IMG/VR virus record: IMGVR_UViG_3300017963_000203
Location: 1-64,000 of that record
Reading direction: 5' to 3' (one strand)
Origin: a virus
DNA: 64,000 bases
Notes under the pieces: generated by a model
Told to the model about the DNA's origin: nothing
Databases searched by the model: none
Seen by the model: only the letters and a program-made list of their open reading frames with translations
In this document: positions 8,555-51,942 of the stretch, piece by piece
How positions within the stretch are numbered: position 1 is the stretch's first letter
How the letters are laid out: every line of letters starts with the position of its first letter
Program-made: the position numbers and the translations under genes

Positions 8555-8562
8555 GAGGGCCC

Positions 8563-9445: not shown

Positions 9446-9790
9446 ATGCCCCAATCGCCAGATCCGTACCCGATGTTCCTCGAGGCCATGAAGAAGGCAA
9501 CGTCGGGGATCGGAGAGAATATGCAGGGATTCTCCGTGTGCTTCGCCGCCAAGAAGATCGACCACCCAGACGGCGACAACTTCCCCGGAGTCCCTGACGA
9601 CCAGCTCGTCTACACATGGGCCCAAGGCGGGCCGCCGGTAGTCGTGAATATGATCTACCTCGAACTCGCTGTCAACCTGCTCGAGCAGTTCATACAGAGC
9701 AACCGTGGGAACCTCTACATCGCCATGGAAATGATGAAGGCGAAGGTTCTCGAGAAAATGATGGGCAGGGAACGACAAAGGAGACCCTGA
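9446..9790 (+). CDS. Hypothetical protein inside the split polymerase locus
   Basis: 114 residues. No family recognised. It has a central beta-rich region and a C-terminal amphipathic helix (LELAVNLLEQF..., EMMKAKVLEKMM). Its TGA overlaps the ATG of the polymerase C-terminal gene (TGATG), so the two are translationally coupled. Together with the MBL gene it makes up the 1.24 kb that separates the two polymerase halves. Confidence 0.75.
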   Translation: MPQSPDPYPMFLEAMKKATSGIGENMQGFSVCFAAKKIDHPDGDNFPGVPDDQLVYTWAQGGPPVVVNMIYLELAVNLLEQFIQSNRGNLYIAMEMMKAKVLEKMMGRERQRRP

Positions 9791-10887
9791 TGGCGCAGTT
9801 GCAGAACGTACCATCGAGGTCCAAGCCGCAGGAGTATGACGAGAGGATACAAAAATTGGGGCCGCGCATCCGCATGATGTTCGTGGCCCCGCCTCCGGAC
9901 GAATTCTCGCCGGAGGGATACGATCTCATCGTCATTGACGAATCGCAGCTTGAACTCAGGCTCGGAGCCCAGTTCACCAAGGACCCGACTCTTCTTTCCG
10001 TCTACAAGCGGTTCGTGGACGTGGGCGGAATGGTCTTTTACGTCGGCGACATCCACGCCGAAACAGCGCATCGAATGGAGGTGCCAAGGAAGCTGGCGAA
10101 GAACCTCAACTTCGGGCTCATGTACGGAATGAGTCCGGCCAGCTTCGCGAGGTATGCCAAGCTCTACGTTCCTGGGACGAAAACCTACGACGTGCGATCC
10201 GCTGAGGTGTACGTCCAGGGCTTCCGTCGAACCTATTCGGGGGTCTTCAACTACCACGAGAAACTGCGAAGGCGCTGGAACGAAGGGAAGCGATCATTCC
10301 TCATGCTCAGTGGACGGTACCGCCACTTCCCCAAGTGGGCCCGCGTCTCCCCCGGTACCGTGTATAACTCGAAGATTCAGGGCTCGGCTGCCGACGTCAT
10401 GAAAGTCCAACTCTGGGCCATCAAGAAGTGGATCCTGTCCAATCCAGAATTCGAGGGACTAAAACCCTTGATTCAGGTTCACGACGAGTTTATCTTCGAG
10501 GTTCCAAAGCGGATCTCACAGAAGGCGGCTGTGGCGTTGAAATACGTCATGGAGTACCCGTTCTTCGATATGGACGTTCCGCTGCTGGCGTCAGCCAAGG
10601 TGTGTCAGAACTGGGCAGCCAAGGATGACGACAGCATCCCGGAGATAGGCACGTTCTACGCGCAAATCGACGGGAAGGACCGGCTATTCAGGCCGGACCA
10701 ATGGAAGAAGTATCTCGCTGTGGAAGAGAAGACCACGCAGAAGTCTTGCGTGGCCATGCTCTCCCCGAGACAGAAGGCGTGGGCCAGAACGCTCCTGCCC
10801 AAGAGCATTCCTACGTTCGGGGGGCGGAGCAAGGGGCTCAGTATCATGTCCCTCGATGAGTACAGGAAGAGAAAGGAGAGCCAATGA
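9790..10887 (+). CDS. polA-C: DNA polymerase I (family A), C-terminal part: polymerase palm/fingers
   Basis: 365 residues from ATG 9790 (AAAGGAG upstream). It opens with MAQLQNVPSR, continuing the PolA sequence interrupted in the N-terminal gene. Motif A is IDESQLELRLGA (catalytic D50; the usual Tyr after it is Glu), motif B is RKLAKNLNFGLMYG (R100, K104, F108, Y112), motif C is QVHDEF (D232, E233). All catalytic carboxylates are present, so the half is not degenerate. About 80 extra residues follow motif C. It needs the primer-binding/exonuclease half made from 7247-8554. Confidence 0.93.
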   Translation: MAQLQNVPSRSKPQEYDERIQKLGPRIRMMFVAPPPDEFSPEGYDLIVIDESQLELRLGAQFTKDPTLLSVYKRFVDVGGMVFYVGDIHAETAHRMEVPRKLAKNLNFGLMYGMSPASFARYAKLYVPGTKTYDVRSAEVYVQGFRRTYSGVFNYHEKLRRRWNEGKRSFLMLSGRYRHFPKWARVSPGTVYNSKIQGSAADVMKVQLWAIKKWILSNPEFEGLKPLIQVHDEFIFEVPKRISQKAAVALKYVMEYPFFDMDVPLLASAKVCQNWAAKDDDSIPEIGTFYAQIDGKDRLFRPDQWKKYLAVEEKTTQKSCVAMLSPRQKAWARTLLPKSIPTFGGRSKGLSIMSLDEYRKRKESQ

Positions 10888-17408: not shown

Positions 17409-17909
17409 ATGGGACTCCTCGACTACGAAGGTCTGGTCTGCGGATGGTGCGGCAGCACCGACATCGGGATGATTCCCCTCGCCACTGTAAGCGTGAAAGG
17501 ACCCGCGCTCGTGTTCCCCATCGCGTACTGTCGCGATTGTGGGGCCCCCTTCGTACCGCCGGAGGGGGTAATCGAGGAGAAACGAGAGGAGTGGGGTGAC
17601 GCAATCCGGAAAGAGTCAAGATCGACCCGCATCAAAAAGAAAGCCCCCACCACGAAAGAACCACCCACACCGGACAAAAAGGAAAAGAAAGACGACAAGC
17701 CTACGTGTGAGAAGTGCGGAAAGAAGATGAGCGTCGATCACACGTCCAAGGCTCGGTACACGACCTTCGTACTTTGGAAGTGCCGGTGCGGCCACACGTG
17801 GCTGGAGAAGCGCCACTATGGTCCCCCGCTCAGTGAGAGCGAATCCGAGAGAGATCCGGAGCCACTCGACCCTGAATCGTTCCCAGAGGTAGACGAGGAT
17901 TTGTCATAA
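17409..17909 (+). CDS. Double zinc-ribbon protein
   Basis: 166 residues. The N-terminal ribbon has CGWC...CRDC, the C-terminal ribbon CEKCGKKM...CRCGHTW, linked by a Lys/Pro/Thr-rich spacer. The second ribbon resembles TFIIS/RPB9-type ribbons in spacing but lacks the acidic DE hairpin. Acidic C-terminal tail. Possibly nucleic-acid binding; no function assigned. Confidence 0.75.
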   Translation: MGLLDYEGLVCGWCGSTDIGMIPLATVSVKGPALVFPIAYCRDCGAPFVPPEGVIEEKREEWGDAIRKESRSTRIKKKAPTTKEPPTPDKKEKKDDKPTCEKCGKKMSVDHTSKARYTTFVLWKCRCGHTWLEKRHYGPPLSESESERDPEPLDPESFPEVDEDLS

Positions 17910-17946
17910 GAGAGGTGGAGGAAGTCTATTTTTAATGGAGGGACCT

Positions 17947-23389: not shown

Positions 23390-23524
23390 AAGTTTTACCC
23401 AGAGGAAATACCTTCAAAATCTCTACCGCATACGTCATAAGAATAGTGCAGCAGGAGTCCATTCTTCGCGCCAGCTCTCAGGGAAGATGGGCGCCACCAC
23501 CGGACATCCCCCAGTAGGGGAGAC

Positions 23525-24397: not shown

Positions 24398-24759
24398 GGG
24401 GGCGTAAAGGGTTCGACTGGGTAGTGAAAGGATACCTTGCGTGCCGTGGTTGGTCGGTCACCACGTTAAAAGCCGCCCACACTTTTAAGTGCCAATCCAA
24501 ACACTGGGAGCTTCACCGCTCCCCTCGCAGCGGTCGCTTAGACCCCTGCCCTCAAACCGGCGAGGTTCCGTAGCTGGGGCGAGGCCGTTCACGGGACTGG
24601 ATCGGCAGAGCTGGTCGTCTGCTGGTTGAGAAAAGACCTGGCTTCGTCGGGTGGAAAGAACCCGAATAGGTTGCCGGCTCTCGAAAGAACCGGATACGCG
24701 CGTAGACAGGTACTGGAAACTGCTTCAGGACGTGGGTTCGATTCCCACCGCCTCCACCA
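24398..24759 (+). ncRNA. ssrA: Transfer-messenger RNA (tmRNA)
   Basis: A complete 362-base tmRNA. The acceptor arm is GGGGGCG / CGCCTCC with the G3.U pair that marks alanine charging, followed by discriminator A and an encoded CCA. The 5' part GGGGGCGTAAAGGGTTCGACTGGG and T-arm GTGGGTTCGATTCCCAC are canonical. The tag reading frame starts at 24491 (GCC after TTAAGT) and ends at TAG 24539-24541, giving ANPNTGSFTAPLAAVA, a hydrophobic end typical of ClpXP-type degrons. It rescues stalled ribosomes and tags the nascent chains. It sits between two intrinsic terminators. Confidence 0.95.
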
Positions 24760-28258: not shown

Positions 28259-28515
28259 CCGACCCGAACGCCGTCTTCGCACTTCTCGGAAATCTCGATG
28301 ATCGCCGCCGGAGTACGATGAACATGCTGAACCGAATCGTCGACGGAGAGCCGAGCGATCGTTCAGTTCTCGCCGAAGTGCTTCTGAATCACACTGCGAT
28401 CATGCGCGGTCAGCAGATCATCATCAGCCTTTTAACCGACCAAGGCTTGGCCACACGGAGTATGGCCAGGGACGCCCTGCCCGACTACCAAAAAGGGCAT
28501 GCTGATCAGTCATAA
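28255..28515 (+). CDS. Small helical hypothetical protein
   Basis: 86 residues, ATGA overlap with the ligase stop. All-helical, polar (LDDRRRSTMNMLNRIV...). No family recognised. Confidence 0.65.
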   Translation: MTDPNAVFALLGNLDDRRRSTMNMLNRIVDGEPSDRSVLAEVLLNHTAIMRGQQIIISLLTDQGLATRSMARDALPDYQKGHADQS

Positions 28516-28520
28516 GAAAC

Positions 28521-28914: not shown

Positions 28915-29127
28915 GTGGAAAAGTACGGCGCAATTCAATGTCCGAAGTGCAAGAGCATGAATGTGATCGAGGAGGGTGCTGAGAAGATCGCGGTCGAGCA
29001 CAACGATCTGATCAAGACGGCCTCCGAGAACATGGGGGGCTCGTTCCTTTGCCAGGACTGCAAGCACAGATTCAGCAAGGTGACCGGGTCCGCCGCCTGC
29101 TTGCCGGACGAAAAGTCGGGCACCTGA
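28915..29127 (+). CDS. Zinc-ribbon protein
   Basis: 70 residues from GTG 28915 (GGAGTGGTCAC upstream). Two CxxC knuckles (CPKCKS at 9-14, CQDCKH at 46-51) make a small zinc ribbon. It may bind nucleic acid or RNA polymerase; context next to a sigma factor makes a transcription role plausible but unproven. Confidence 0.75.
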   Translation: MEKYGAIQCPKCKSMNVIEEGAEKIAVEHNDLIKTASENMGGSFLCQDCKHRFSKVTGSAACLPDEKSGT

Positions 29128-29582
29128 TTCGTGTCCGCCTGTCCGACAGCACAAAGGATCTACTGGATCGAGTAAGCAGAGACTCGAGCCGGCCCCTCGT
29201 CGACATCGTTTCTGCCGCCGCCAAGAACTACCTCGAGAACCCCTCCTACTACAAGCCCCGCATCCTCGAATCTCAAGAAGAGCAACCCCACATCATCAGC
29301 GTCCGGGTGAGCAAGGGAGTCTCGGATTTCTTTCTCGATGAAGCTTTTGTCGCGCCCATCCGGGCGCGTCTTCATTTCATGGGCCTGGTCGTCGGCTTCT
29401 TTTTACGAAGATACCCGTACAGGGATCTCGTGACCGCACTCCATTCGTACGCCGACGTTATCGGGCCAATGCTGAGGGAGAGGCAGAATGGGAAATCTAA
29501 GCTCAAAACCACGCAAGACCCCGAAGATCATCCAACCCGGCGATCCCGACTACGCTCGTCTCGTAGGAACAGTCACCGATGA
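29049..29582 (+). CDS. Tandem ribbon-helix-helix DNA-binding protein
   Basis: Up to 177 residues. The only ordinary start in this frame is TTG 29049, inside the upstream gene; a non-standard start near 29124 is possible because the domain begins there. IRVRLSDSTKDLLDRVSRDS...VDIVSAAAKNYLEN is a CopG/Arc-type RHH unit, and IISVRVSKGVSDFFLDEAF...GLVVGFFLRR looks like a second unit. A single-chain RHH dimer would bind a short palindrome. The last 95 bases overlap the next gene. Likely autoregulator of the sigma operon (inference). Confidence 0.65.
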   Translation: MPGLQAQIQQGDRVRRLLAGRKVGHLIRVRLSDSTKDLLDRVSRDSSRPLVDIVSAAAKNYLENPSYYKPRILESQEEQPHIISVRVSKGVSDFFLDEAFVAPIRARLHFMGLVVGFFLRRYPYRDLVTALHSYADVIGPMLRERQNGKSKLKTTQDPEDHPTRRSRLRSSRRNSHR

Positions 29583-29964
29583 GGATGTGGCGACGCTTCA
29601 AGAGAGCGTCGACCAGACCATCCACGGCGACGACATCTTCATCCCCTTCAAGAAGATGTCCCTGCGCCAGGGCGTCCTGGAGTACGGTGTGATCGAGATC
29701 GCACCGGACGTCTGCAAGCTCATCTTTCACTTCGAGAACGTCTCCAAGAACTTCGCCAATCAGCTTGGCCGGTTCTTCTGGGAGAAGGTACGCAGGAAGA
29801 TCATCACGGACGCGGACCTCATGGCCGGGGCATCCGTAGAGGCGGGTGAGAACCCCATCTTCAGAAGCAACTGGGACGTGACCATTCTCAACATCAGCGC
29901 TCTCGTCGCCCAGGCGAAGCTCAATCTCATCGTCGATAGTCTGAAAAAGGAGTTCCCTGTATGA
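29488..29964 (+). CDS. Hypothetical protein upstream of sigma factor
   Basis: 158 residues, ATG 29488 with GAGGCAGA upstream. Mixed alpha/beta; FKKMSLRQGVLEYGVIEI and CKLIFHFENV are strand-rich. No family recognised. Its TGA overlaps the sigma ATG (ATGA), so both are co-translated; an anti-sigma or co-factor role is possible but unsupported by motif. Confidence 0.7.
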   Translation: MGNLSSKPRKTPKIIQPGDPDYARLVGTVTDEDVATLQESVDQTIHGDDIFIPFKKMSLRQGVLEYGVIEIAPDVCKLIFHFENVSKNFANQLGRFFWEKVRRKIITDADLMAGASVEAGENPIFRSNWDVTILNISALVAQAKLNLIVDSLKKEFPV

Positions 29965-30923
29965 AAAAGACAAGCGCTGATTTCAGAGAGTACTACACGC
30001 AGTTTCGTGCCTATCCTCCTCTTCGCCCCACCGAGGAACGCCGCCTGCTGCACGTGATCAAAGGCCTGCAACCGCCAGTGGACTACGACGGCATGGAGCG
30101 AATGTGGGGAAAGCACAAGGAGAACGGGACCAAGGGCGCCATCGATGATCTGTGGCTCTCGCTCGACGAGAAGATGTGGGGCGTCAAACAGGAGAACCCA
30201 TTCCCAGTCAACGGAACCTGCCGGCGGCCAACGCGACAGGAAATGAAAGAGGCCCTCGAGCGTTTCGTCATGCACAACATGCGCCTGGTCCTGTCGAGAG
30301 TGCTGAAGTTCAGGCACCAGGAGGACCCAGACGTCATGGAGATCGTCTCCTACGGGACCGACGGTCTTTACCGAGCCATCGAGCTCTTCGACCTATCCCG
30401 CGGGACGAGGTTCTCCACCTACGCCGTCCACTGGATTGAGTCTCAGATCAGGAAAGGCCTCAAGTTCGTCGAAGGGCAGAAACCCCCTCTCCTGAAGAAA
30501 CTGACGAGCACGTTCAAGAGGGCCGAGAAAGACCTCACCACGGACGACGGCATTCGCCCGACGAACGAGGACGTGGCCGAGCACCTGAACTGGGGGCGAA
30601 AGACCCTGCACATCTACCAGACGTCAGGAATCTCCAATACGCCGATAGAGACCTTCGACCGCGAGGACGAATCGTGCGAACCCATACCCGATGACATCGT
30701 GCAGAGGGAGATTGTGAACGCTCTACACGACAACATGGGTGTTCTGGAGCCGTTCGAGGAGGACATCATCAGGAGGCACTACGGACTCGGCTACCCGGAG
30801 GAGACCCTACAGAAGCTGGCAGCCAGGTACGGCGTGACCAAGGAGCGCATCCGGCAGATTGAGAACGGCGGCCTCGAGAAGCTCTACATGGCCCTCCGCG
30901 CCTTCCGCGATCCGGACGATTAA
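29961..30923 (+). CDS. Sigma-70 family RNA polymerase sigma factor
   Basis: 320 residues. Region 2 is clear: MRLVLSRVLKFRH, DGLYRAIELFDLSRGTRFST and YAVHWIESQIRK (promoter melting and -10 reading). Region 3 and a linker follow, then region 4 as a helix-turn-helix, EEDIIRRHYGLG...LAARYGVTKERIRQIE. An extra 70-residue insertion sits between regions 1.2 and 2. It should steer a core polymerase to phage promoters. The same phage encodes a beta-beta' polymerase at 58-64 kb, the obvious partner. It is the last rightward gene before convergent transcription. Confidence 0.92.
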   Translation: MKKTSADFREYYTQFRAYPPLRPTEERRLLHVIKGLQPPVDYDGMERMWGKHKENGTKGAIDDLWLSLDEKMWGVKQENPFPVNGTCRRPTRQEMKEALERFVMHNMRLVLSRVLKFRHQEDPDVMEIVSYGTDGLYRAIELFDLSRGTRFSTYAVHWIESQIRKGLKFVEGQKPPLLKKLTSTFKRAEKDLTTDDGIRPTNEDVAEHLNWGRKTLHIYQTSGISNTPIETFDREDESCEPIPDDIVQREIVNALHDNMGVLEPFEEDIIRRHYGLGYPEETLQKLAARYGVTKERIRQIENGGLEKLYMALRAFRDPDD

Positions 30924-33492: not shown

Positions 33493-36400
33493 TTAGATGT
33501 AGATGTAGACCTCGCCCTCGGCCGCGGAGACGTACGGGGTCACGCGGCACTTGATGATGAAGGTGTCCGGACGGTCCGGATCCTCCTCGATGCTCAGGAG
33601 CACGACGTCGCGCAGCTCCTTGTTCTGCTCGACCACGTCCTTCCGGACGGCCTCGAAGTTGTTGCTCACCAGGTCGAAGAAGGGCTCGTCAATCACGAAG
33701 GGCCCGAGCAGCGGCTTGAGCTGGCTTCGCAGCTTCCTGGCGAACGAGTCCACCTGGACCGCCACGTTGTCCTCGGCCTTGTAGATGTCGGTGACGTCCG
33801 TGGAGAGCGCCCGGATGGCGTAGGGTTCCAGGTCGTCGCCGTCGTGGATGATGTAGTAGTTCCCGCCGTCGATGATGATGTCCTGGTAGGCCTCGATGTC
33901 CCCCATGGGATCCAGGATGCGGTAGATGGAGCCCCTCTTGAATCCGGTCAGGGGCTGTTTGGGGTTCTCGTTGGACCGCTTCCCGGCCTCGATGACGGTG
34001 AGGTACTCGGCCCCCAGAGTGGCGATCTGGTCGCCGCCCCCGAAAGGCCCCGTAGTGGCGTCCTCGCCCGCGATCTCGTCCGTGAACCGCATCATGACCG
34101 TATCGGGCCAGATGTTCCGGAAGCGACGGTTGGGGATGCTCTGGGCGTAGGCCGCCTGCTGGTTGGCTCGCTCGAGCAGCGAGAGATTCTTGCTCTTGAT
34201 GTCCCACGAACTCGCGGTTCCGCTCGACGGAGAGGGCACCGTGGGGTCGGCCACGATCCGCATGGTGCTTTGCCCCGACGCCGGTGTGGATCCCTGGATC
34301 GAGATGATCCTGGCGTTGGTGATCGGGTAGTCCGTCGTTCCGTCGTTGAGCGTGCCATTGAAGACGTCGCCCACGACCACTCCGTAGCTCGTCAGATCAC
34401 GAGTGGTGGAGACGACGGTGGTGATCCCGGTGGCCGTCTTGCCGTAGGTGACCGCGTCGCCCAGACTCTCACTCGTACGCGTGGTCTGCACGACCTCCTT
34501 GTGGGAGAAGTAGGTGATCCGCTCCCGCTTCTCCTCGGGCTCGCTCATGAGCGACACGTGGGTCCGCAGGAGGGCCAGGACATCCTCCCTCTGGGTGAGG
34601 ACGATGGGGATGTAGACCTCGTCGCTCTCGGCGACCGTCAAGCCGTCCGTCCAGTCGGCCACGGTATCGTCCGTGACCTGGATGGCGAAGGCGCTCGCGC
34701 CCAGAACCGTGAAGAGAGTCTGGGCAGCCAGGGCCAGATCGTTGCCGGGGACCGGCGCCCCCAGAATGGCCTCGAAGTTGTTCTCGTCGATGGGCACCCG
34801 CTGGTTGAGGAGGTCGTTCCTCTTGGCCGCGTAGGTGCACAGGACGTCTCCCTGGAGAGGCGACCCGGTGACCGTCTTCTTGATCCGGTAGTTGATGTCC
34901 TGCCCCGTGTCGGGGAAGGTGACGGCGTTGATGAAGAGGCCCGCGTAGGCTCCCGCACCCGGAGACCCCACCAGCTCGTTCTTGACCGTGAGCTGTGTGT
35001 CCGAGTCCACCGAGATCACCTCGAGGATCGCGGCGTTCTGGTCCAGCACGTTGAACGCGAAGCGCGTGTCGCTCGCGGAGGCCGGGGGGTTGCCCGGGAT
35101 GATGTTCACCACGTCCAGCGTGCCTACGCCCGCCGGGTGCACCGTCACAACGGTGAAGAGCGTAGTCCCGGTGACTACGTCCTGGATCCAATCCCCCGGG
35201 ACCACCCCGGCCGTCGCGAAGTCCACGCCAGCGGCGGTGATCCGACGTTCGGTCGGACCGCCAGCACCGGTGCCCTCGGCGAGGTAGGAGCCGGCCGTGT
35301 TCCCCGTGATGCTGGTCGGCGTCCTGATCTCGTAGGAGACGAAGGACGGGTTGATGGCGGTGGCGGTGGGATTCGGATCGGTGCTGTCGTGCTGCGACAC
35401 GACCAGTTCCGTGGCTGAAGGCACCCCCTGAACGATGAAGATCGGCGGGTTCCCCACTCCCAGGTACGGGGCCGGTCCCGCCAGGTTGTCGATGATGATT
35501 TCGTCACCGATGGCGATCGGCGTAGCGAGAAAATTGGCCGTAGCATCGTGAAAAATCCTCTGACCGGCAGGAGGCGCGGGCTGTCCCCACGCAGCGACAC
35601 CGTCAGCGTCGTACTCACCAACCAGGGAAAAGATCCCTGGACCGAGATTCTTGGGCGCGCCGTAGCGCACAATGTCGTAGGGGACGCCAACGGCCGCGGC
35701 CGTCAGAGCCGGATTTGGCACCGGCAGCGTGACGATGTTCTCGCAGTCGTCGATGAGGATTTCGCTCGCCACGCTGTTGACCAGGAAGAAGGGAACCCAG
35801 TCTCCCAGAGCGTCCGCAGAGAAGATGATGTCGTTGGCGAGCACAGGACCCGCGGTGATGAAAAGAGCGGCCGCATCGGAGAAGGACCGACTCGTGGCCG
35901 GCGCTCCCGTCCCCGTCCCCACCGCTCCGTAATCGCCGCCCAGGACGCTGATGATGGCGTCCCAGCCGTCGATGGTGCACAGGTCGCCCACGTCCACACC
36001 GTTCTGCTCGAACTGCTGGTTCGAGCTGCTGAGGATGCGGAAACCGTAGGCGTCCTCCGCGCCGAGAACGGCGTCGGGCACCAGAGGGGTCACGGCCTTG
36101 TTCCGGCGCACCACGTCGAGCTGGCTGTCCGAAATGATGTTCACCACGTCGAAGGACGGGTAGTAACTCCCGTCCGAATGAAGCGTCTCGATGACGTCGT
36201 TCGTGGCGACCTCGGCGTCGATGAAGTCCTCCTCGGCGTCGGTGAAGTATCCCGACACGGCCGAATAGGCTCCGTCTTCCCCTTCCACGATGGTGAAGAC
36301 CACCGAAGCTCCGGCCGCAATGTCGAAATGCGGCGGGTCGGCCACGAAGTCGTAGGACAGGTCCGGTGAGAGGACCTCGCCCAGGCCGTAGTTGTTCGAG

Positions 36401-36669
36401 ATGAAGACGTGCGGCTCGAGGACGTCCGGGAACTCGAGAACATCCAGGACGGCTCCGGGCTGCTCCACCGTCGAGCCCGCGATGAGGTCGGGGAAGTAGT
36501 AGCGCTGGCCCGGCTGACCTCCGACGAAGGAACCGGCGTTTCCGCGCCAGACGAACTGGCGGTTCAAGCCGATGAGCGCCACAGGGAGATTCGTCGCGGG
36601 CACGATGGGTGCCTGCGTCTCGAAGATCTGGAAGACCGTGATGTCCGGTCGAAGGCCGCTCAGTGCCAT
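33493..36669 (-). CDS. Very large tail-sheath-like protein
   Basis: 1058 residues. The N-terminus (LRPDITVFQIFETQAPIVPATNLPVALIGLN) has the membrane-free beta start of contractile sheath proteins. The C-terminal 150 residues hold the helical/strand block FFDLVSNNFEAVRKDVVEQNK...RPDTFIIKCRVTPYVSAAEG, like the conserved sheath end. Typical sheaths are 400-700 residues; here the middle is expanded by repeated beta-rich domains that could decorate the tail surface. Supports a contractile-tailed phage. Homology inferred by pattern only. Confidence 0.6.
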   Translation of the reverse strand: MALSGLRPDITVFQIFETQAPIVPATNLPVALIGLNRQFVWRGNAGSFVGGQPGQRYYFPDLIAGSTVEQPGAVLDVLEFPDVLEPHVFISNNYGLGEVLSPDLSYDFVADPPHFDIAAGASVVFTIVEGEDGAYSAVSGYFTDAEEDFIDAEVATNDVIETLHSDGSYYPSFDVVNIISDSQLDVVRRNKAVTPLVPDAVLGAEDAYGFRILSSSNQQFEQNGVDVGDLCTIDGWDAIISVLGGDYGAVGTGTGAPATSRSFSDAAALFITAGPVLANDIIFSADALGDWVPFFLVNSVASEILIDDCENIVTLPVPNPALTAAAVGVPYDIVRYGAPKNLGPGIFSLVGEYDADGVAAWGQPAPPAGQRIFHDATANFLATPIAIGDEIIIDNLAGPAPYLGVGNPPIFIVQGVPSATELVVSQHDSTDPNPTATAINPSFVSYEIRTPTSITGNTAGSYLAEGTGAGGPTERRITAAGVDFATAGVVPGDWIQDVVTGTTLFTVVTVHPAGVGTLDVVNIIPGNPPASASDTRFAFNVLDQNAAILEVISVDSDTQLTVKNELVGSPGAGAYAGLFINAVTFPDTGQDINYRIKKTVTGSPLQGDVLCTYAAKRNDLLNQRVPIDENNFEAILGAPVPGNDLALAAQTLFTVLGASAFAIQVTDDTVADWTDGLTVAESDEVYIPIVLTQREDVLALLRTHVSLMSEPEEKRERITYFSHKEVVQTTRTSESLGDAVTYGKTATGITTVVSTTRDLTSYGVVVGDVFNGTLNDGTTDYPITNARIISIQGSTPASGQSTMRIVADPTVPSPSSGTASSWDIKSKNLSLLERANQQAAYAQSIPNRRFRNIWPDTVMMRFTDEIAGEDATTGPFGGGDQIATLGAEYLTVIEAGKRSNENPKQPLTGFKRGSIYRILDPMGDIEAYQDIIIDGGNYYIIHDGDDLEPYAIRALSTDVTDIYKAEDNVAVQVDSFARKLRSQLKPLLGPFVIDEPFFDLVSNNFEAVRKDVVEQNKELRDVVLLSIEEDPDRPDTFIIKCRVTPYVSAAEGEVYIYI

Positions 36670-42837: not shown

Positions 42838-44028
42838 TTACACCACGGCCGGCAGCGCCGCCTGGAGGTTGTCGTTGATGATGGTGAAGTTCCCGGCCGA
42901 GGCCGTGACGCCCGCGGGCGTCTGGAACGTCACCGGCAACGTCATCCTGGCTCCCTTGAGCAGGATGGCGCCGAGGGCGCGGATGTTGCCGAAGCCGGCC
43001 CCGACGTCCTCCCAGGCCTCCATCTCGATCCAGCGGCTCCGCTTGTCGATGAAGAACTTGGTGTTCTCCAGGACCATGAAGCGGCCGATGAACTCGGGGG
43101 CCGGGAACACGTAGATGACGCCCGGCTCGACGAGGTCGTCGTTGTCCCGGATCGTGGTCACGAAGGTGTAGCCGCCCACGGTCGTGTACTTGTACCCGTC
43201 GCGGACGATCTCGCTCGTGATCTCGAGGCCGGCCTCCGTCAGCGACCACGCGACGGTGTCGGTCCAGGTGACCTCGTGGAGGAGGAAGGTACGCGCCTTC
43301 TGCTGGCGCGCGGCGGGGATCTTCACGAGGTCCTTCAGGACCACGCGGTTCCAGTCGTCCTCGTCGGAGAGGATGATGTTGGAGTAGATCGCGTCCGCCC
43401 GGTTGAGGTTGGCCGTGGGAATCGGGGCCCACGCGCCGGCGCCCTTGGCCCTCTGGAAGAGGAAGCGCATGAACTCGGCCTGATCGCCGAAGTTCCTCGT
43501 GCCGCCGGCGACGACGCCGCGCTGCACGAGCTTGTTGTAGTTGTACCGGGTGCCCAGGAAAAGCCCCGACTTCACGTGCTGCATGAACGTGAAGTCCTCC
43601 TGCTCCTGGATGTCCTTGGCGATGTTCTGCTCCAGGATCTTGGTGAGGGGCATGCGGTAGGAGCGGAGCTCCTGCTCGGACTTGATGATCTTGTCCGAGG
43701 AGATCGTGTGAAACACGATCTTGTACCGCGGAGCCTGGATGTAGGTCTTCTCCGGCTCGCCGCGCCAGTTGATGTGCATGGCGATGGAATCCGGCTCGAG
43801 GTCGTCGATGTACTCGAGACCTTCGTCCTCGATCCTCCGCTGGCACTCCTTCTCCGTCACGACCTTCGGAGGCAGGATCTTGCGGCAGAAAGCGTTCTCA
43901 CGGAGCTTCTGCTGGATGTACAGGCCGCTGGCCTGTCCGAGCTTCGTGAGCGCCTCGCCGCCGACCTCGAGGGTCTGCCCGAACAGCGTGTTGAACTGCT
44001 CGGCGTTGAACGCGCCCGTATCCGACAT
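42838..44028 (-). CDS. Probable major capsid protein
   Basis: 396 residues, ATG 44028 after AGGAGGAACTGAC. HK97-fold major-capsid features by pattern: helical N-terminal arm, a long charged spine helix (MPLTKILEQNIAKDIQEQEDFTFMQHV), E-loop/A-domain strands and a closing GAGFGNIRALGAILLKGA segment. It is followed by a dedicated terminator and preceded by scaffold-like and decoration-like genes, the normal capsid order. Length fits a 400-residue capsid protein. Confidence 0.75.
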   Translation of the reverse strand: MSDTGAFNAEQFNTLFGQTLEVGGEALTKLGQASGLYIQQKLRENAFCRKILPPKVVTEKECQRRIEDEGLEYIDDLEPDSIAMHINWRGEPEKTYIQAPRYKIVFHTISSDKIIKSEQELRSYRMPLTKILEQNIAKDIQEQEDFTFMQHVKSGLFLGTRYNYNKLVQRGVVAGGTRNFGDQAEFMRFLFQRAKGAGAWAPIPTANLNRADAIYSNIILSDEDDWNRVVLKDLVKIPAARQQKARTFLLHEVTWTDTVAWSLTEAGLEITSEIVRDGYKYTTVGGYTFVTTIRDNDDLVEPGVIYVFPAPEFIGRFMVLENTKFFIDKRSRWIEMEAWEDVGAGFGNIRALGAILLKGARMTLPVTFQTPAGVTASAGNFTIINDNLQAALPAVV

Positions 44029-44092
44029 GTCAGTTCCTCCTATTGAGAACCTTTCTCCCGGAACCCTACTTCACCGTCGAGACAATCGCGGC

Positions 44093-44623
44093 TTAGTACT
44101 GGGTGCCGATGGAGTTGTACATGAAGAAGATGGTGTCTCCCCTGAGCTTGGTGATCACGCCGAAGCTGACCTTGCCGCCGATGGCGCCCGCCGCCACGGC
44201 CTGGGGCTTCCCGTGGTCCGCGGCCGGAGCCGCGTTCGGGGTGATCGTGACGTGCTTGCCCACGGCCGGATCGTTGGCCGGGGACGCCGCCACGTACCAG
44301 CGATCGAGCGGGATGGCCAGCTCGATGCCGCCGCCCTGGATGCCCGAGAGACCGCCGGCCAGGAGAGCCTGGTTGGGCGCGCTCGGGTCGAACGGATCCG
44401 TCTGCGAGTCCTGGGCGGACGGCGCGCTCGACACCAGGAAGTTGACGTAGGCGACGAGGTCGTTCTCGTCGGCGAGGCGCGCGTAGCCCGTGGTGTCGTG
44501 GGTCACGAAACGCCCTTCCTCGACCGTCGAGGTCAGATCACGCCAGTTCAGCTTCTCGAAGTTGAAGGAGCTGAACTTCGCGTTGATCGTGACGATCGAC
44601 TCGCTCTTTCTCTCCTGAGTCAT
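44093..44623 (-). CDS. Capsid decoration/stabilising protein candidate
   Basis: 176 residues, ATG 44623 with AGGAGTG upstream. Beta-rich, Ala/Gly/Pro-containing; no enzyme motif. Encoded immediately before the major capsid gene, where decoration proteins usually lie. Assignment rests on context. Confidence 0.55.
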   Translation of the reverse strand: MTQERKSESIVTINAKFSSFNFEKLNWRDLTSTVEEGRFVTHDTTGYARLADENDLVAYVNFLVSSAPSAQDSQTDPFDPSAPNQALLAGGLSGIQGGGIELAIPLDRWYVAASPANDPAVGKHVTITPNAAPAADHGKPQAVAAGAIGGKVSFGVITKLRGDTIFFMYNSIGTQY

Positions 44624-44645
44624 GGCTTTTCACTCCTTCTGATTT

Positions 44646-45035
44646 CTACCCGATGACACCCCGATCGAGGAGATCGCTGAAGCAATCCGCAATCGGGTTT
44701 TTGCCACCGCTCTTGGGCTGTGACTCGGACACCGGTTCTCCCAGACGGGTCTCGAAACGATCGATCCCCAGTTCGTGTGCCGATTTGGTGACTTGAAACC
44801 TCATGGGATCGGCCATGAACTCCGCGACCTTGTCAGTCGCATCGTTCGGGTCGATCTGGCCTTCGGCGATGAGTTGCAGCACGCCCTTTGTGATCTCCAG
44901 TTCCTGTTGAATGGCTGCCACCTTTTCCATCGCCTCCTGGGCCTTCTCTTCGGCGGTCTTGACCAGGACTTCCTGATTCCTCAGTTTGTCCCGAATCCTC
45001 GCCGCCACCTCCGTATCCAGAACGACTTTGCCCAT
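44646..45035 (-). CDS. Coiled-coil late protein (scaffold-like)
   Basis: 129 residues from ATG 45035. A long heptad helix (about 10-70, EVLVKTAEEKAQEAMEKVAAIQQELEI) is followed by a polar tail. The size and helix content fit a scaffolding or assembly protein. Adjacent to other acidic helical genes. Confidence 0.65.
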   Translation of the reverse strand: MGKVVLDTEVAARIRDKLRNQEVLVKTAEEKAQEAMEKVAAIQQELEITKGVLQLIAEGQIDPNDATDKVAEFMADPMRFQVTKSAHELGIDRFETRLGEPVSESQPKSGGKNPIADCFSDLLDRGVIG

Positions 45036-45036
45036 C

Positions 45037-45279
45037 TCACGGTTCCAGTGAGACCAGGGCGTCGAGAGCCGCAAGCCATCCGGCCATTGTCAGGTCCTCA
45101 CGACGCTCCAGGTACGCCTTCTTTTCCAGCCCCCGCTGAACCTCGGAGTTCCCCATGGCGTCCGTCAGCGACCCGATGACCTCGTCGAGATCGGGGTCCG
45201 CCTGTGCTTCCTTCCGGAAGCGCTCCCTGGACCGGGCTTTGATCTGGTCCAGGGCTGACTGAACAGCCGCAACGTCCAA
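45037..45279 (-). CDS. Small helical late protein
   Basis: 80 residues from TTG 45279, with GAGGAG six bases upstream. Helical; contains LEKKAYLERRED, a K-x-A motif variant. No family recognised. Confidence 0.65.
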   Translation of the reverse strand: MDVAAVQSALDQIKARSRERFRKEAQADPDLDEVIGSLTDAMGNSEVQRGLEKKAYLERREDLTMAGWLAALDALVSLEP

Positions 45280-45282
45280 GGG

Positions 45283-45756
45283 TTACTCCTCCTCGGCGGA
45301 TTCCTCGCCGAGCTCGAGCAGGATGTTGGCCGCCAAGCGGCCGAGCTGCTCGGATTCCTCGTCCGAGGCGACCTTCTCCAGGTCCTCCTCGGAGATGCCC
45401 GCCATCTGGAGGGCCTCGCCCGCGAGGGCGCCGAGCTCCGCGAGCTCTTCGGCGGCTTCCTTGGAGAGCTCTTCTTCGCCCTCCTCGACGCCCGCCGTCT
45501 TCTCCTCGCCCCCTTCGGGCTCGGAGTGCGCCGCGATGTGCTCTTCGACCAGTTGGGCCGCGGCCGACAGCATGCCCGAGTCGGACATGGGGGCCACCTC
45601 GCCGTTGGCCTCGGCCACCTTCAGCAGGTCGACAGCCTCGTCGAGGAGCTGCTGGCGGAGCTCGTCGCCTTCGTACGCGGCTTCGATGGCCGCGAGCTTG
45701 ACGTTGAACTCCTGCTGGTCCAGGGCCTGGACGATGTCGCTGAGTCTCGTCTCCAT
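45283..45756 (-). CDS. Acidic scaffold-like protein
   Basis: 157 residues, extremely Glu/Ala/Leu-rich and predicted all helical. Contains EEKTAGVEE, LSKEAAEEL and LEKVASDEE. Composition and place upstream of the capsid gene suggest a scaffolding core component, perhaps cleaved during maturation. No homologue recognised. Confidence 0.65.
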   Translation of the reverse strand: METRLSDIVQALDQQEFNVKLAAIEAAYEGDELRQQLLDEAVDLLKVAEANGEVAPMSDSGMLSAAAQLVEEHIAAHSEPEGGEEKTAGVEEGEEELSKEAAEELAELGALAGEALQMAGISEEDLEKVASDEESEQLGRLAANILLELGEESAEEE

Positions 45757-45787
45757 CTCGTTCTTCCTCCTGGATGTCTTTCGGTCA

Positions 45788-45807
45788 CTCCTCGACTGTT
45801 CGAGGAG
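45788..45807. promoter_or_regulatory. Perfect inverted repeat between late genes
   Basis: CTCCTCGA-CTGT-TCGAGGAG, an 8-bp stem with tetraloop in the 94-base gap between two scaffold-like genes. It has no T run, so it is not a standard terminator; it could be an RNA-processing or mRNA-stability hairpin. Confidence 0.35.
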
Positions 45808-45850
45808 AGTCTCACACCGGGCGAACGGAGATCAATCCCGGGAAGGCGAC

Positions 45851-46270
45851 TTAGCCTCCGCGGGTCTCCGCCGGGTTCGGGTTCTTGGACTGCGGGGGAG
45901 CCACCGCGCCGTAGGTCACGTTGGGGTTGGCCCCCTCGATCTTCTTCTCGGTGACCCCGCCGCCCCCGGTCTCGCCGATCGTGGCGCCGGCCGGCCCCGC
46001 GCCGTGGCGCTCCTGGACCTTCTTGGCCACGTTCTTGAAGACCGACTGGTCGTTTTCGGGGTTGGCCTGGGAAGACTCGACGGTGCCGCCTTCGGCCGCC
46101 GTCTTCTTGAGTTCCGCGACGAAGCCCTTGGCGAACATGCGCCCGCCGGCGAAGAGGTCTTCCGCGACCTTCATCATGGGATCGTCGGCCTTGCCGGCGG
46201 AAGCGTTCTTCTCCAGGCTCCCGTCGGTCTCGAGTTCCTCGAGCAGACTGTCGATGTTGATGCCGTTCAT
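45851..46270 (-). CDS. Late protein with module-like segment
   Basis: 139 residues. Acidic helical start (NIDSLLEELETDGSLEKNAS), then MFAKGFVAELKKTAAEGG, a variant of the recurrent module, then a Gly/Pro/Asn-rich disordered end. Unknown function; gene order suggests capsid assembly. Confidence 0.7.
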   Translation of the reverse strand: MNGINIDSLLEELETDGSLEKNASAGKADDPMMKVAEDLFAGGRMFAKGFVAELKKTAAEGGTVESSQANPENDQSVFKNVAKKVQERHGAGPAGATIGETGGGGVTEKKIEGANPNVTYGAVAPPQSKNPNPAETRGG

Positions 46271-46283
46271 GTCGAACGCTCCT

Positions 46284-47819
46284 TCAAACCTTTTTCATCT
46301 TCAACCCGACCAGGAAAGGCGTCACCGGCCGGAACCTGTCACTCGCAGTTTTAATCCCCGCCAAAGCATTTTCAACCGCGTCGGGGTCACGAATCAGCAA
46401 AGTTTTCTCTGCTGCTTTCACCAGGTCTTCGACATCCAGTCGCCCGAGTGCTTCCAGGTACTTGTCGTAGACTTCGCTTGCCCCCTTGTCAAGAGCCGCC
46501 CCCGGCTTTGGTCCTGAGATTCTTATAATCCTGACCACGCGTTTGGCAAATGGCGGATCAAACAAACTCCTGCTCGGGATCAACTCTTTGAACTTCGATA
46601 GGAGTCTGGGGAGTACTGAATCCAAGTCAAGTCGTTCCGGAACTTTCTCCGAGTCTCCCTCTGTGATGATCTCCACTTCGGGTTTCTTGAGAAGGATACC
46701 CGATGCTGTTGCGCCGTTAAAGATTTCCTCCGGAGACATCGTTTGGCGCATCGATTTGAGGGACACGGCCGGAATGCACCTCGACGCGTTGTCATCCTCT
46801 TTCACGAGGTTCGAGAGGATTTTCTGTGCCTTCGGCTTGAGCAGAGTCTTGCCGAGATTGTCCTGGCCAGGTTCGGCTGGGACTTCTTTGCTGATCTCGC
46901 CAAGCTTGAAGATCGTTCTTTTCTTTCGCATGGATTCCTGCGCCGAGGCAACCTTCACGAAGTCGACACTACGAATGGTGTAATCTTCGTGACGTTGGAC
47001 AACCGTGGGGTCGGCTGTTGGAAGATGAACGCCGGCGACTTTTCGAAGGGAATACGCTGGAGCGAATGCTGGCGTGATTACTCTCGAAATATCGAAGAAC
47101 CTCGGGAACCAGTTTTCTGCCGCGACCTTTCTTCCGTCTGGAAGCGTGACGTTCAACAGCGTCCGAAGATGCTCACAGTACTGGTTCCGATTCTTCGCCA
47201 CATTCTTGCAGATGGAGCAAACGTCGAACGCGACCTTGCAACCCATGGACCACGGAATGGGCTCACCACGGTCGATCATGCCCACGAGATCCGGGGCGGA
47301 AAGACCAACGCCGTCCCTTGGTGGATCCTTTCGAATGAAAACGATGAGCTCTCCGCGGCGCATCTTCTCGTTGTATGCCGCGCAAATCACCTTCTCCCCG
47401 ATGGAGAACTTCGGGTCTTTGTTGTTGTGAAGGACGAACGGGTAGGCATAAGTCTCGAAGGTGCTGATACCGTACTCCGGAGGAATCGGACGGCCGGTCT
47501 TTCTGAGGAACGCCTGGATGTCCGGAGGGGGCGGCTCATGAAGGAGAGACCACTCCCAGAAGCTGTCGCCGTTCTTGTTGCTCCCCCATGCCTCGGTAGC
47601 ACCCACGGCGTTGATGTGCACGTATCTACCGTCTTCCCTCGGAGAGAGGGAGGCCGCAGCTTTGATGAGACGCTCCGGAATGTAGACCTCGGACGCTGTC
47701 TTCTCGAAGACGCGCGAATGGATCGGGAGATAGGACGGGCCCCACCTGGCATCGTATGCGGGGGCCACGTGCTTCTCCATCTCCGGAGAGAGGATCAGAT
47801 TTGCTCTCTTGTCGATCAT
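46284..47819 (-). CDS. Possible prohead protease or related core protein
   Basis: 511 residues, ATG overlapping the upstream stop. The central part has SMGCKVAFDVCSICKNVAK...YCEHL, a Cys/His cluster that I associate with phage head-maturation core proteins, followed by ENWFPRFFDISRVITPAF. About 200 helical residues with several K-x-A motifs (FEKTASEV, LIKAAASL, IKTASD) complete it. Placement just upstream of scaffold and capsid genes fits a prohead protease. A catalytic triad cannot be assigned by eye. Confidence 0.5.
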   Translation of the reverse strand: MIDKRANLILSPEMEKHVAPAYDARWGPSYLPIHSRVFEKTASEVYIPERLIKAAASLSPREDGRYVHINAVGATEAWGSNKNGDSFWEWSLLHEPPPPDIQAFLRKTGRPIPPEYGISTFETYAYPFVLHNNKDPKFSIGEKVICAAYNEKMRRGELIVFIRKDPPRDGVGLSAPDLVGMIDRGEPIPWSMGCKVAFDVCSICKNVAKNRNQYCEHLRTLLNVTLPDGRKVAAENWFPRFFDISRVITPAFAPAYSLRKVAGVHLPTADPTVVQRHEDYTIRSVDFVKVASAQESMRKKRTIFKLGEISKEVPAEPGQDNLGKTLLKPKAQKILSNLVKEDDNASRCIPAVSLKSMRQTMSPEEIFNGATASGILLKKPEVEIITEGDSEKVPERLDLDSVLPRLLSKFKELIPSRSLFDPPFAKRVVRIIRISGPKPGAALDKGASEVYDKYLEALGRLDVEDLVKAAEKTLLIRDPDAVENALAGIKTASDRFRPVTPFLVGLKMKKV

Positions 47820-48787
47820 CCGAACACCGTGGTCACTCGAGGTATAGCCACACTCGCCGTATTGGTCATTCCAGTGAGGGGCGCAGGTTGTGGCGCCGCC
47901 GCCGGGGGTGCAGCGGTCGGCATCTTCAGTCTACCGCGTTCCGCTCGCCGCATGAGAACATTTTGCAGGCGGGGGATGCCAGCCGACTCCTGAAGGATCC
48001 CAGGGAGCCCCTGCATCGCGATGAGCGGGAGCACACCGCCCAAGATCGGGCTGCGAACCCCCAGCCCATACATGATGGGTTCGATAGCGCTCATGGCAGC
48101 CATCTGGAGGAGCATGCTCCCCCAGGGGTTGTTCACGATCTTCGCCCACGGCCCCACCTTCATCCCCTGCTGCTGGGCGACGCCGAGAGGGTCGGCCTCC
48201 ACCGCCTTCTGCTGTCTGAGAATACTCTGGAACTTTTTCTGAGTAATTGGGGCCTGACTCGGTCTTGCTGCCTTGGGCACAGCAGGAGTGCCGGGCTTGG
48301 GAACCTTGAGCCCCGCCTGAAACTTCTTCCACATCGCCTCGCCACCCGGGACAGCCGATCCCGCTGGCTTGGACACGACAGGAGCCTTGGGCGGAGTGGC
48401 GGTCAGCCCCTTCAACCAATCGAGAGCCCCGCCCTCCTTGGATAGAGCATCCGTTCCATCCCCGACGAGGCTCACGTTCGTGTCGCCCCACTGTGGGATC
48501 GCTCTTGTGGAAAGAATTTTGTACTTGGATGCTTTCCGGCGCGTTGGTTTGACGCCGCCACCACGGACCACCTTGTCTCGGAGAGATCGGTCGTTAGCCT
48601 GGGCCTTGAGACCGATGCCGCGTAGGATCTCTTGGCGCTCCTGACGTGCAGGCGAAGGAACCTTGCGACCAGCTCCGGACTCGTACTCCTCTTGCGCGGA
48701 GATCTCGCTGGAGCCCTGAGCCTCGGGCTTGCTGAGCGTTGCGGGCCCGATTCGCCCGCGCCACGTGACCTGCATTCCGTCGCGCAT
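47816..48787 (-). CDS. Virion candidate with hydrophobic C-terminal region
   Basis: 323 residues from ATG 48787. Basic, Pro/Ala/Lys-rich for 200 residues. Then comes a hydrophobic helical stretch of about 50 residues (MLLQMAAMSAIEPIMYGLG, ILGGVLPLIAMQGLPGIL) and a Pro/Ala tail. Could be an internal or membrane-interacting virion protein. No family recognised. Confidence 0.65.
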   Translation of the reverse strand: MRDGMQVTWRGRIGPATLSKPEAQGSSEISAQEEYESGAGRKVPSPARQERQEILRGIGLKAQANDRSLRDKVVRGGGVKPTRRKASKYKILSTRAIPQWGDTNVSLVGDGTDALSKEGGALDWLKGLTATPPKAPVVSKPAGSAVPGGEAMWKKFQAGLKVPKPGTPAVPKAARPSQAPITQKKFQSILRQQKAVEADPLGVAQQQGMKVGPWAKIVNNPWGSMLLQMAAMSAIEPIMYGLGVRSPILGGVLPLIAMQGLPGILQESAGIPRLQNVLMRRAERGRLKMPTAAPPAAAPQPAPLTGMTNTASVAIPRVTTVFG

Positions 48788-48799
48788 GCGTCTTCCGAT

Positions 48800-49729
48800 C
48801 TACTTGCTGCGGCCCGGGGTTCTTGCTCGCGCACTCCCACCACGCATCTCGATGATGGTCGGCGCGTGAATGGTCGTGCCTTTCTGCCTCGGCCCGAAGT
48901 TCTTCGCCACGTCGAGCATGGTGGTGGCCATTTGGTTGACCTGGCCCTGGGTGGTGCGCTCGATGTTTCCGCTCTGATTCTCGATGTCGAGCAGCTCCTT
49001 GATCATGCCCGGCTGGATGAGATCCGGGCCTGTCTCGTGCCACCGCTTCATGAGATTCCCCGCGAGAATCGGATTCTGGGCCACGTGCGGGGCGAAGGTC
49101 GTGAGAATCTGAAAGTAATGGCCCACGTTGGGGTCGTTCCTCAGCTCGGGATGCTGTCGGAGGATCCTGGTGAGCGAGTTCTTCAGATTGCCTGACTGCG
49201 TGATGGCTTTCACACCGGAGGCGATGACCGGAGCGGCGACGCCGCTGAGGGCCATGGCCGCCATGATCGGCTGCCAGTTCTTTCCCCACCACTGACCGCC
49301 TCGGACGATGCCTCCTGGCTTGCCAGGAGTGCCCTTGCCATGCCACGTGTACTTGGTGCCCCTACCAACTCCTCGACCCACATCCTTCAACGCCTGGAGC
49401 ATCTTGTCTGCGATGCCGGCAGTCTTCTCGATGTGAGGGGACAATTTCTCGAGAGCCGAGAACGCCTCCTTCGTGATGTGCCGGTCGACGGCCGCGCGCT
49501 CGTGGTCTTCTCCACGGAAAGCGATATAGGTGGTGACGCGGCCGATCTTCTCGATGAGATCGTCGGACGCGTAGGCCAGGTGCTGCTCGACGAGGCGCGA
49601 CATGCCCTCACGATCCCCAGCCTGGGCGCATTTCAGCATCCCGGCCACGAACTTGCCGATCTCCGCGCGCTCGTCCTCGTTGAAGTTCCGCTCGTTGTAA
49701 AGCGCAGCGAATTTTTCGAAGATGGACAT
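48800..49729 (-). CDS. Helical late protein with membrane-like segment
   Basis: 309 residues. N-terminal helical region (FEKFAALYNERNFNEDE, EIGKFVAGMLKCAQ), IEKTAGIADKM motif, a Gly-rich linker, a short hydrophobic segment (IMAAMALSGVAAPVIASGV) and a basic end. No family recognised; virion protein likely from context. Confidence 0.7.
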   Translation of the reverse strand: MSIFEKFAALYNERNFNEDERAEIGKFVAGMLKCAQAGDREGMSRLVEQHLAYASDDLIEKIGRVTTYIAFRGEDHERAAVDRHITKEAFSALEKLSPHIEKTAGIADKMLQALKDVGRGVGRGTKYTWHGKGTPGKPGGIVRGGQWWGKNWQPIMAAMALSGVAAPVIASGVKAITQSGNLKNSLTRILRQHPELRNDPNVGHYFQILTTFAPHVAQNPILAGNLMKRWHETGPDLIQPGMIKELLDIENQSGNIERTTQGQVNQMATTMLDVAKNFGPRQKGTTIHAPTIIEMRGGSARARTPGRSK

Positions 49730-49738
49730 GGTAAACCT

Positions 49739-50992
49739 CTACATCTGGAAGGGCGGCGCGTAGGCCTGGTTCCCGTAGAACGAGCCAACCGGGGCCTGCG
49801 GCCCTTGGACCTGAGCCTCAGGACTCCACCCTGCCCGGCCCTCACGCCCGAACGCGCGCCCGAAGCCTCGACCCACCGCCTTGAGAATCGAAGGACCGAA
49901 GAGGAGGGCAGCCAGAAGTGGAACCCCACCGCCGACCATGGCCGTACCCTTTCCCATCCTCCAGGCCTTGCCCAGGACACCGGACTGCTTCACGGGCGCC
50001 TTGGTCGCCGCCGCGATCTTTCGGATCTCGACAACCTTGTGGAAGAGGTCCTCGTCCGCCATGCTCGACGCCTTCTTCGCCAGGTTCTCCACCTCCGACA
50101 TCAGGTACTCCTGCGTGTCCAGGTTGTCGGTGAAGGAGTTCGTACCGACTTCGACCGGGTCCGGAGCGTCGTTCAGCATCTGGATCGCTCCTCGAACGGA
50201 GTCGGTCTCGCTGATTTTCTTCCGGAAGGTATCGAGGTCCACCTGGAATGCGTGGCGCCCGTTGATGACCTGCCACTCGCCGTTGGGGATCTCCACGTTC
50301 TGCGCGAGGATCTTCTTGTCCACGGGATGGCCGAGCTTGGTCAGATCGTCCTTGACCGCCTCGAAGACCTTGAGCCAGAGCCGATCGTTCCCTGGGAACG
50401 CGGCGCAGGCGTACTTCATGAGATCCTGAATCTCGCCGCCGTCGAGAAGGACGTGGTTTCGCGCTTCCTCCCGAATCTTGGCGTAGGCCTTGTGCGTGGC
50501 GTCCTCTGATGCCTGCTTCTGGAGGGCCAGCTCACCAACCCTCTTTCGAAGCTCAGAGAGGACGACACCGGCGCTGTGCTCGGCGCGCTTCTCCATGAGC
50601 TCCTCGGCTTCCTTCACGAACGGACGCGCGCTGGCGACCTTCTCGATCCCCTCGAGAACGGTCTGCTTGAAAGCGGACTCGTCCCGCATGGGCTCGAACA
50701 CGGACATGACAGAGGCCGTTTTCACGGTACTGGCCTTGTCGGGATGCAGGATTGCCTGCACGCCGGCCAAGGATGCCAACGGGAAAGTGAACGTCTTGTC
50801 GCCAGCGGTCTTGAACAGACGCTCGTTGGCATCCAGATTCGTGAGCTCCACGACTCTCTGGATCTGGACCGGCGAGAGATTGTTCTTCTCGGCGAGCTTC
50901 GCGATGGTGTCGTTGAGTGGCACGTTCTTCTCTACGAACTGCTCCGAGGCCATCTTGGCGAAGTCGGCGAAACGGATCGGATTGATATCCAT
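49739..50992 (-). CDS. Large helical late protein rich in K-x-A motifs
   Basis: 417 residues. Helical throughout (FADFAKMASEQFVEKN, EKVASARPFVKEAEELMEKRA, LAKKASSMAD). Near residue 340 is a hydrophobic Gly-rich stretch (MVGGGVPLLAALLFGPSIL), and it ends Pro/Gln/Tyr-rich. Not recognisable as portal. Probable virion component. Confidence 0.7.
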   Translation of the reverse strand: MDINPIRFADFAKMASEQFVEKNVPLNDTIAKLAEKNNLSPVQIQRVVELTNLDANERLFKTAGDKTFTFPLASLAGVQAILHPDKASTVKTASVMSVFEPMRDESAFKQTVLEGIEKVASARPFVKEAEELMEKRAEHSAGVVLSELRKRVGELALQKQASEDATHKAYAKIREEARNHVLLDGGEIQDLMKYACAAFPGNDRLWLKVFEAVKDDLTKLGHPVDKKILAQNVEIPNGEWQVINGRHAFQVDLDTFRKKISETDSVRGAIQMLNDAPDPVEVGTNSFTDNLDTQEYLMSEVENLAKKASSMADEDLFHKVVEIRKIAAATKAPVKQSGVLGKAWRMGKGTAMVGGGVPLLAALLFGPSILKAVGRGFGRAFGREGRAGWSPEAQVQGPQAPVGSFYGNQAYAPPFQM

Positions 50993-51001
50993 GATCCTCT
51001 C

Positions 51002-51889: not shown

Positions 51890-51942
51890 GCTCTTCTCCG
51901 TCAAATGTAGTCCTCTAAGGTTTACTCAGGGGACCCATGATT

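Follow-up and report, generated by a model that had tools for sequence, protein, structure and literature searches.

We analyzed a 64,000-nucleotide stretch of viral DNA (hereafter the window; positions 1 to 64,000 of IMG/VR record IMGVR_UViG_3300017963_000203) that carries a gene for a sigma-70 factor and, on the opposite strand, one for a fused beta-beta' RNA polymerase, and asked which polymerase core the sigma factor serves and at which promoters. The first-pass annotation had taken the sigma for the probable partner of the phage core, the former expressed with the early block, the latter with the late block, in a switch to late promoters. Below, G000 denotes the full record (130,894 bp) and G018 its nearest relative (IMGVR_UViG_3300018080_000118), which shows reverse synteny and a polymerase 64% identical. 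The main features are as follows.

3339–28258, plus strand: replication block with a DnaB-like helicase, DNA polymerase A halves, a helicase, a RecA-like protein and an NAD-dependent ligase; the sigma's strand
29488–29964, plus strand: 158-aa gene overlapping the start of sigma A; next to sigma A in G018 too (39% identity)
29961–30923, plus strand: sigma A, sigma-70 family, 320 aa, with regions 2 and 4 and a weak region 3
42838–53907, minus strand: structural block with the major head protein, head protease and large terminase; the polymerase's strand
58318–64512 (window part 58318–63984), minus strand: fused beta-beta' RNA polymerase, 2064 aa, with NADFDGD
60834–60966, minus strand: beta' clamp-helix coiled coil (residues about 1183–1226), the docking site for sigma region 2

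The sigma gene, the fused core and their setting

By homology, the gene at 29961–30923 encodes a genuine sigma-70 factor, as annotated. Pfam matched Sigma70_r4 (8.6e-11, 42 bits, residues 259–308) and Sigma70_r2 (4.9e-9, 36 bits, residues 103–166), both above the cut-off, with a weak match for region 3, and PHROG_351, 'RNA polymerase sigma factor', matched at 2.1e-31. The top sequence match in the PDB was SigA1 (1.1e-20), the nearest solved chains being cyanobacterial and other SigA proteins, and the AlphaFold model (pLDDT 83) resembled sigma-A chains from initiation complexes (E 4e-10), with poor global superposition due to the free placement of the domains. The reading frame is kept in the syntenic G018 (54% identity) and in one near-identical contig, which excludes chance. 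The helix of region 4.2 that reads the –35 element, KERIRQ, is nearly identical to RERIRQ of E. coli RpoD, and one or the other form is found throughout the window sigma's clade. The –10 reading residues of region 2.4, H433, W434, S437 and R440 in E. coli numbering, are partly changed from the aromatic pair and Q437/T440. In E. coli sigma, residues 437 and 440 set the preference at position –12.

The core is equally real, although the window shows it in part: the window edge removes the first 176 amino acids, and the gene is complete only in the full record. Pfam identified both beta and beta' domains (Rpb2_6, 3e-53; Rpb1_2, 3e-27), while the N-terminal zinc domain of beta' was absent from the fused chain and from every lineage member aligned. 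The annotated lack of alpha and omega was borne out by a Pfam search of nine genomes in which the controls worked. The clamp coiled coil is conserved and predicted with high confidence, giving sigma region 2 a docking place; the flap-tip segment (residues 716–727), the usual dock of sigma region 4, has low model confidence. We dropped the idea that the flap-tip helix had been lost from the core, a short helix-like segment, LHRSL, standing at E. coli L901, L902, I905 and F906.

Searching with a three-sequence alignment of the polymerase, we confirmed 166 IMG/VR stretches and retained the best 80 loci of these. A single reading frame of at least 2,000 aa was present in 61 of the 71 loci inspected. 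The isolates with a polymerase of this lineage are the Vibrio phages D69, D148 and D181 and the Salmonella phage Arash, in which the C-terminal part of beta' is a separate gene. Two loci labelled as Staphylococcus and Enterococcus phage (L009 and L010) appear to be wastewater contigs carrying ordinary bacterial rpoB/rpoC and served solely as bacterial references.

The plus strand of the first 31 kb holds the replication genes, with the sigma last, and from 31 kb the minus strand takes over, with the genes for head protein, protease, terminase and polymerase; the portal gene follows on the same strand at 71–73 kb of G000. The annotated placement of sigma and core on opposite strands, in a replication and a structural block, thus agrees with the gene content.

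Several further features of the region were recorded. A gene of similar size occupies the place of the 158-aa gene beside the sigma in G004, and a 1,058-aa protein (33493–36669, minus strand; 63% identity in G018) that matched no Pfam or PHROG family lies near the sigma in several relatives. The replication block contains a complete phage-encoded tmRNA gene (24398–24759, plus strand; Rfam RF00023, 136.7 bits; tag ANPNTGSFTAPLAAVA). DNA polymerase A is split, in G018 as well, into two reading frames (7247–8554 and 9616–10887, plus strand) that match adjoining parts of the Pfam profile (13–124 and 127–380), and between them a 366-aa frame (8335–9435, plus strand) matches the anti-Pycsar protein Apyc1, a known counter-defence family (PF23023, 107.5 bits, cut-off 50). 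Past the end of the window, at 76.9–100 kb of G000, some 23 kb of small plus-strand frames lack G018 counterparts in that position and are probably an early accessory region.

Two sigma families and the virion

Searches with Sigma70_r2 revealed two different sigma genes in several fused-polymerase genomes. Of the 21 fused-polymerase records that reach 120 kb, 19 carry sigma B, the family of Arash Gp10; with two shorter records, this makes 21 in all. Among the long ones, G014 and G000 itself lack it, and in G000 searches by BLAST, phmmer and profile found no sigma B gene. The sigma B gene of G018 lies at 123.3–124.0 kb and G000 covers only 18.3–106.5 kb of that genome, so G000 is probably incomplete at the corresponding place; by synteny, about 45 kb would be absent from the record. 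Family A, taken broadly enough to include the window sigma, is present in 9 of 49 records, and the label spans two clades of a tree of 43 sigma factors. The window sigma groups with those of G018, G046, G047, G004 and one 22-kb fragment (support 100/100). D69 and Arash Gp196, a distant analogue of the window sigma, fall in the other clade, which has 12 members (support 98/89). The Arash-type proteins have lost the –35 helix; sigma B lacks the W433/W434 pair.

Every member of both family A clades that is long enough to judge carries the fused polymerase, the 22-kb fragment being too short, and mapping the fused-polymerase label on the tree required 4 changes against about 14 in shuffles. This restriction supports the view that the sigma goes with the phage-encoded core in this lineage. 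To that extent the proposed partnership stands; the near-universal companion of the core, and the one packaged in virions, is sigma B.

The strongest outside evidence is the mass spectrometry of Arash particles (PMC10585845), and it bears on family B, not on the family of the window sigma. The fused beta-beta'N protein, Gp206, gave 3,516 spectra, the most of any protein, the C part of beta' (Gp216) gave 1,210, and sigma B (Gp10) gave 467 with 100% coverage, while the family A protein Gp196 is not among the virion proteins listed (PMC10585845). The authors considered that the packaged polymerase could act in early transcription or be a carry-over from high expression (PMC10585845). With the most spectra of any protein in the Arash virion, the core is probably injected and the first to act, which does not support reading it as a late product only. 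By homology and gene place, the polymerase of the window phage would likewise be carried in the particle.

These data weigh on the model of the first-pass annotation, which makes the window sigma the chief or sole partner of the fused core and credits it with the late switch. Within one genome, the placement of sigma and core in opposite blocks fits it, as does the presence of a shared operon motif (below). The relatives, however, almost all have a second sigma, which Arash packages, and the shared motif precedes early and replication operons rather than structural operons and is found even where family A is missing. We consider the model very improbable. A packaged sigma B is the likelier starter of the polymerase, and the window sigma is probably a later switch and not the sole partner.

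As a separate observation, the family A sigma genes of Arash and G020 have a host-type promoter upstream, TTGACT-N17-TACTAT in Arash and a similar one in G020, which suggests that the host polymerase makes this sigma in those phages.

Candidate promoters

We searched for promoter motifs by counting 8-mers in upstream regions. In most of the genomes tested a single signal dominated: GGTATAAG in Arash, G020 and G005, GTTATAAG in D69 and GGCATAAG in G004. In G000, GTCATAAG was among the top few. The consensus, G[GT][TC]ATAAG(A/T)A-N2-TG, resembles an extended –10 element and has a weak A-rich element some 20 nt before it; we call this motif class E. Its upstream enrichment was strong in Arash (P 2e-14), G020 (4e-22), D69 (7e-17) and G005 (2e-15); these P-values come from a search open to every 8-mer, and the best of them survive correction. 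The motif was seen again in G046 and G047, members of the window sigma's clade added to the comparison afterwards. Altogether it stands before operons in nine genomes, most often on the strand that does not carry the polymerase gene (intergenic sites opposite the core: 29 of 30 in Arash, 30 of 31 in G020, 19 of 19 in D69, 8 of 8 in G000 and 22 of 26 in G005), and it precedes early and replication operons and not structural ones. Across the whole G000 record there were 8 copies of TCATAAGA, where shuffles gave 1.4; when the search was limited to the window and allowed one mismatch, the count (9 against 7.6) did not exceed chance. Three sites in the window match GTCATAAGA.

17903–17911, plus strand: class E motif, 31 nt before the gene at 17935
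23434–23442, plus strand: class E motif
28509–28517, plus strand: class E motif upstream of the 28915–30923 operon, which ends with sigma A

A shared operon promoter, which the first-pass annotation had proposed to look for, exists, but by itself it does not single out the window sigma: class E sites are numerous in G005, which has sigma B and no family A sigma (another, unrelated sigma-like gene is also present). This favours sigma B as the reader of class E. One could instead suppose that sigma A reads the motif, with sigma B entering the particle for some other purpose, structural or anti-host for instance. The third base of the motif is C in the window's clade, where the sigmas carry S or A at 437 and R at 440, and T elsewhere, including the Arash-type phages with Q437; this agreement, together with the missing W433/W434 pair of sigma B, speaks for sigma A. 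The change between C and T nevertheless parallels changes in sigma A and sigma B alike, so class E could by this mark belong to either, and its reader is something that we infer. Given the abundance of class E sites in G005 and the lack of sigma A in most fused-polymerase records, reading by sigma A seems unlikely to us.

The KERIRQ helix of the window sigma predicts bipartite late promoters in its clade. In G018, sigma-70-like –35/–10 sites were found in 8 of 15 late upstream regions against 1.2 expected and at most 5 in shuffles; the late genes of G000, G004, G046 and G047 showed no enrichment. The prediction does not hold across the clade, and we rejected the sigma-70-like late promoter as a mark of the window sigma. 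Another upstream motif, CTAAAATA, was enriched in Arash, D69 and G020 (L197–L225), mostly on the structural strand, with a strand bias significant in D69 only. It was missing upstream of genes in G005 and G004 and may serve the Arash-type clade as a late promoter.

The same helix raises the possibility that the window sigma steers the host core to phage promoters and that the fused core pairs with sigma B only. A region 4.2 so close to that of E. coli RpoD (KERIRQ and RERIRQ) would suit the host core equally well and counts against placing sigma A on the phage core; the late sites of G018 point the same way, and recruitment of the host enzyme is what phage sigma factors generally do (PMC7598289). 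The limitation of both family A clades to fused-polymerase phages and the lack of late-site enrichment in the four other genomes argue against it, and we regard this alternative as possible but doubtful.

We think it fairly probable that the phage uses two sigmas, sigma B with the injected core reading class E and the window sigma redirecting transcription later. The virion would inject a one-chain, or nearly one-chain, beta-beta' polymerase together with sigma B, and this holoenzyme would read the lineage-wide class E promoters to make the early and replication mRNAs. Sigma A, a gene of the replication block, would be produced during the early or replication phase, dock on the clamp helices of the phage core and redirect it to other promoters, most likely those of the late genes. 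From the sequences we infer the pairing of sigmas with promoters, the injection and activity of the core and the action of sigma A on the phage core, not the host's.

Comparison with known systems

The lineage shares its general make-up with the mReC phages of Weinheimer and Aylward (2020, PMC7481178), tailed phages in IMG/VR whose beta and beta' can be aligned to the cellular subunits: the window phage has tailed-phage genes (terminase, head protein and portal) and alignable beta and beta'. The main text of that study mentions no sigma and reports fusion only for crAssphage (PMC7481178), whereas here the chains are mostly fused and accompanied by two sigma families and a promoter. The polymerases of phiKZ and AR9 are likewise of the multisubunit type, have a virion form and lack alpha and omega, but they consist of four or five chains and have no sigma-70 homologue recognizable by sequence, with gp68 or gp226 instead (PMC7598289). 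The window phage has one 2,064-aa chain and a sigma-70 gene. In switching promoter class through a phage-encoded sigma, the window sigma would resemble T4 gp55 and similar phage sigmas. Those work with the host RNA polymerase, in phages without a polymerase of their own. Unfused beta and beta' are found in the Cobetia phage Carin-5, where a gene annotated as sigma lies immediately upstream of beta'; we saw no Sigma70_r2 match in this phage.

Another close system is Arash, with a homologous fused beta-beta'N (Gp206), a sigma B in the virion (Gp10) and a second sigma (Gp196) not listed there (PMC10585845). It differs from the window phage in the separate C part of beta' (Gp216) and in a sigma A without the –35 helix. 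The Arash paper names the proteins and does not discuss two sigmas or promoters (PMC10585845), and we found no account of the two sigmas or of the class E promoter in the openly available papers searched.

Two reviews hold that a phage encoding its own multisubunit polymerase has no sigma, and that jumbo phages with a sigma have no polymerase (PMC7598289, PMC7824862). The fused-polymerase lineage, with its polymerase and two sigma families, contradicts this rule. We give about an even chance to the full picture of a lineage that injects an alpha- and omega-free one-chain holoenzyme with its own sigma and its own extended –10 promoter and keeps a second sigma for later genes. The available isolates, Vibrio phages D69, D148 and D181 and Salmonella phage Arash, make the two-sigma idea testable at once. 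If true, a one-chain, alpha-free core using true sigma factors would provide a compact model of bacterial initiation and bear on the origin of sigma-dependent transcription.
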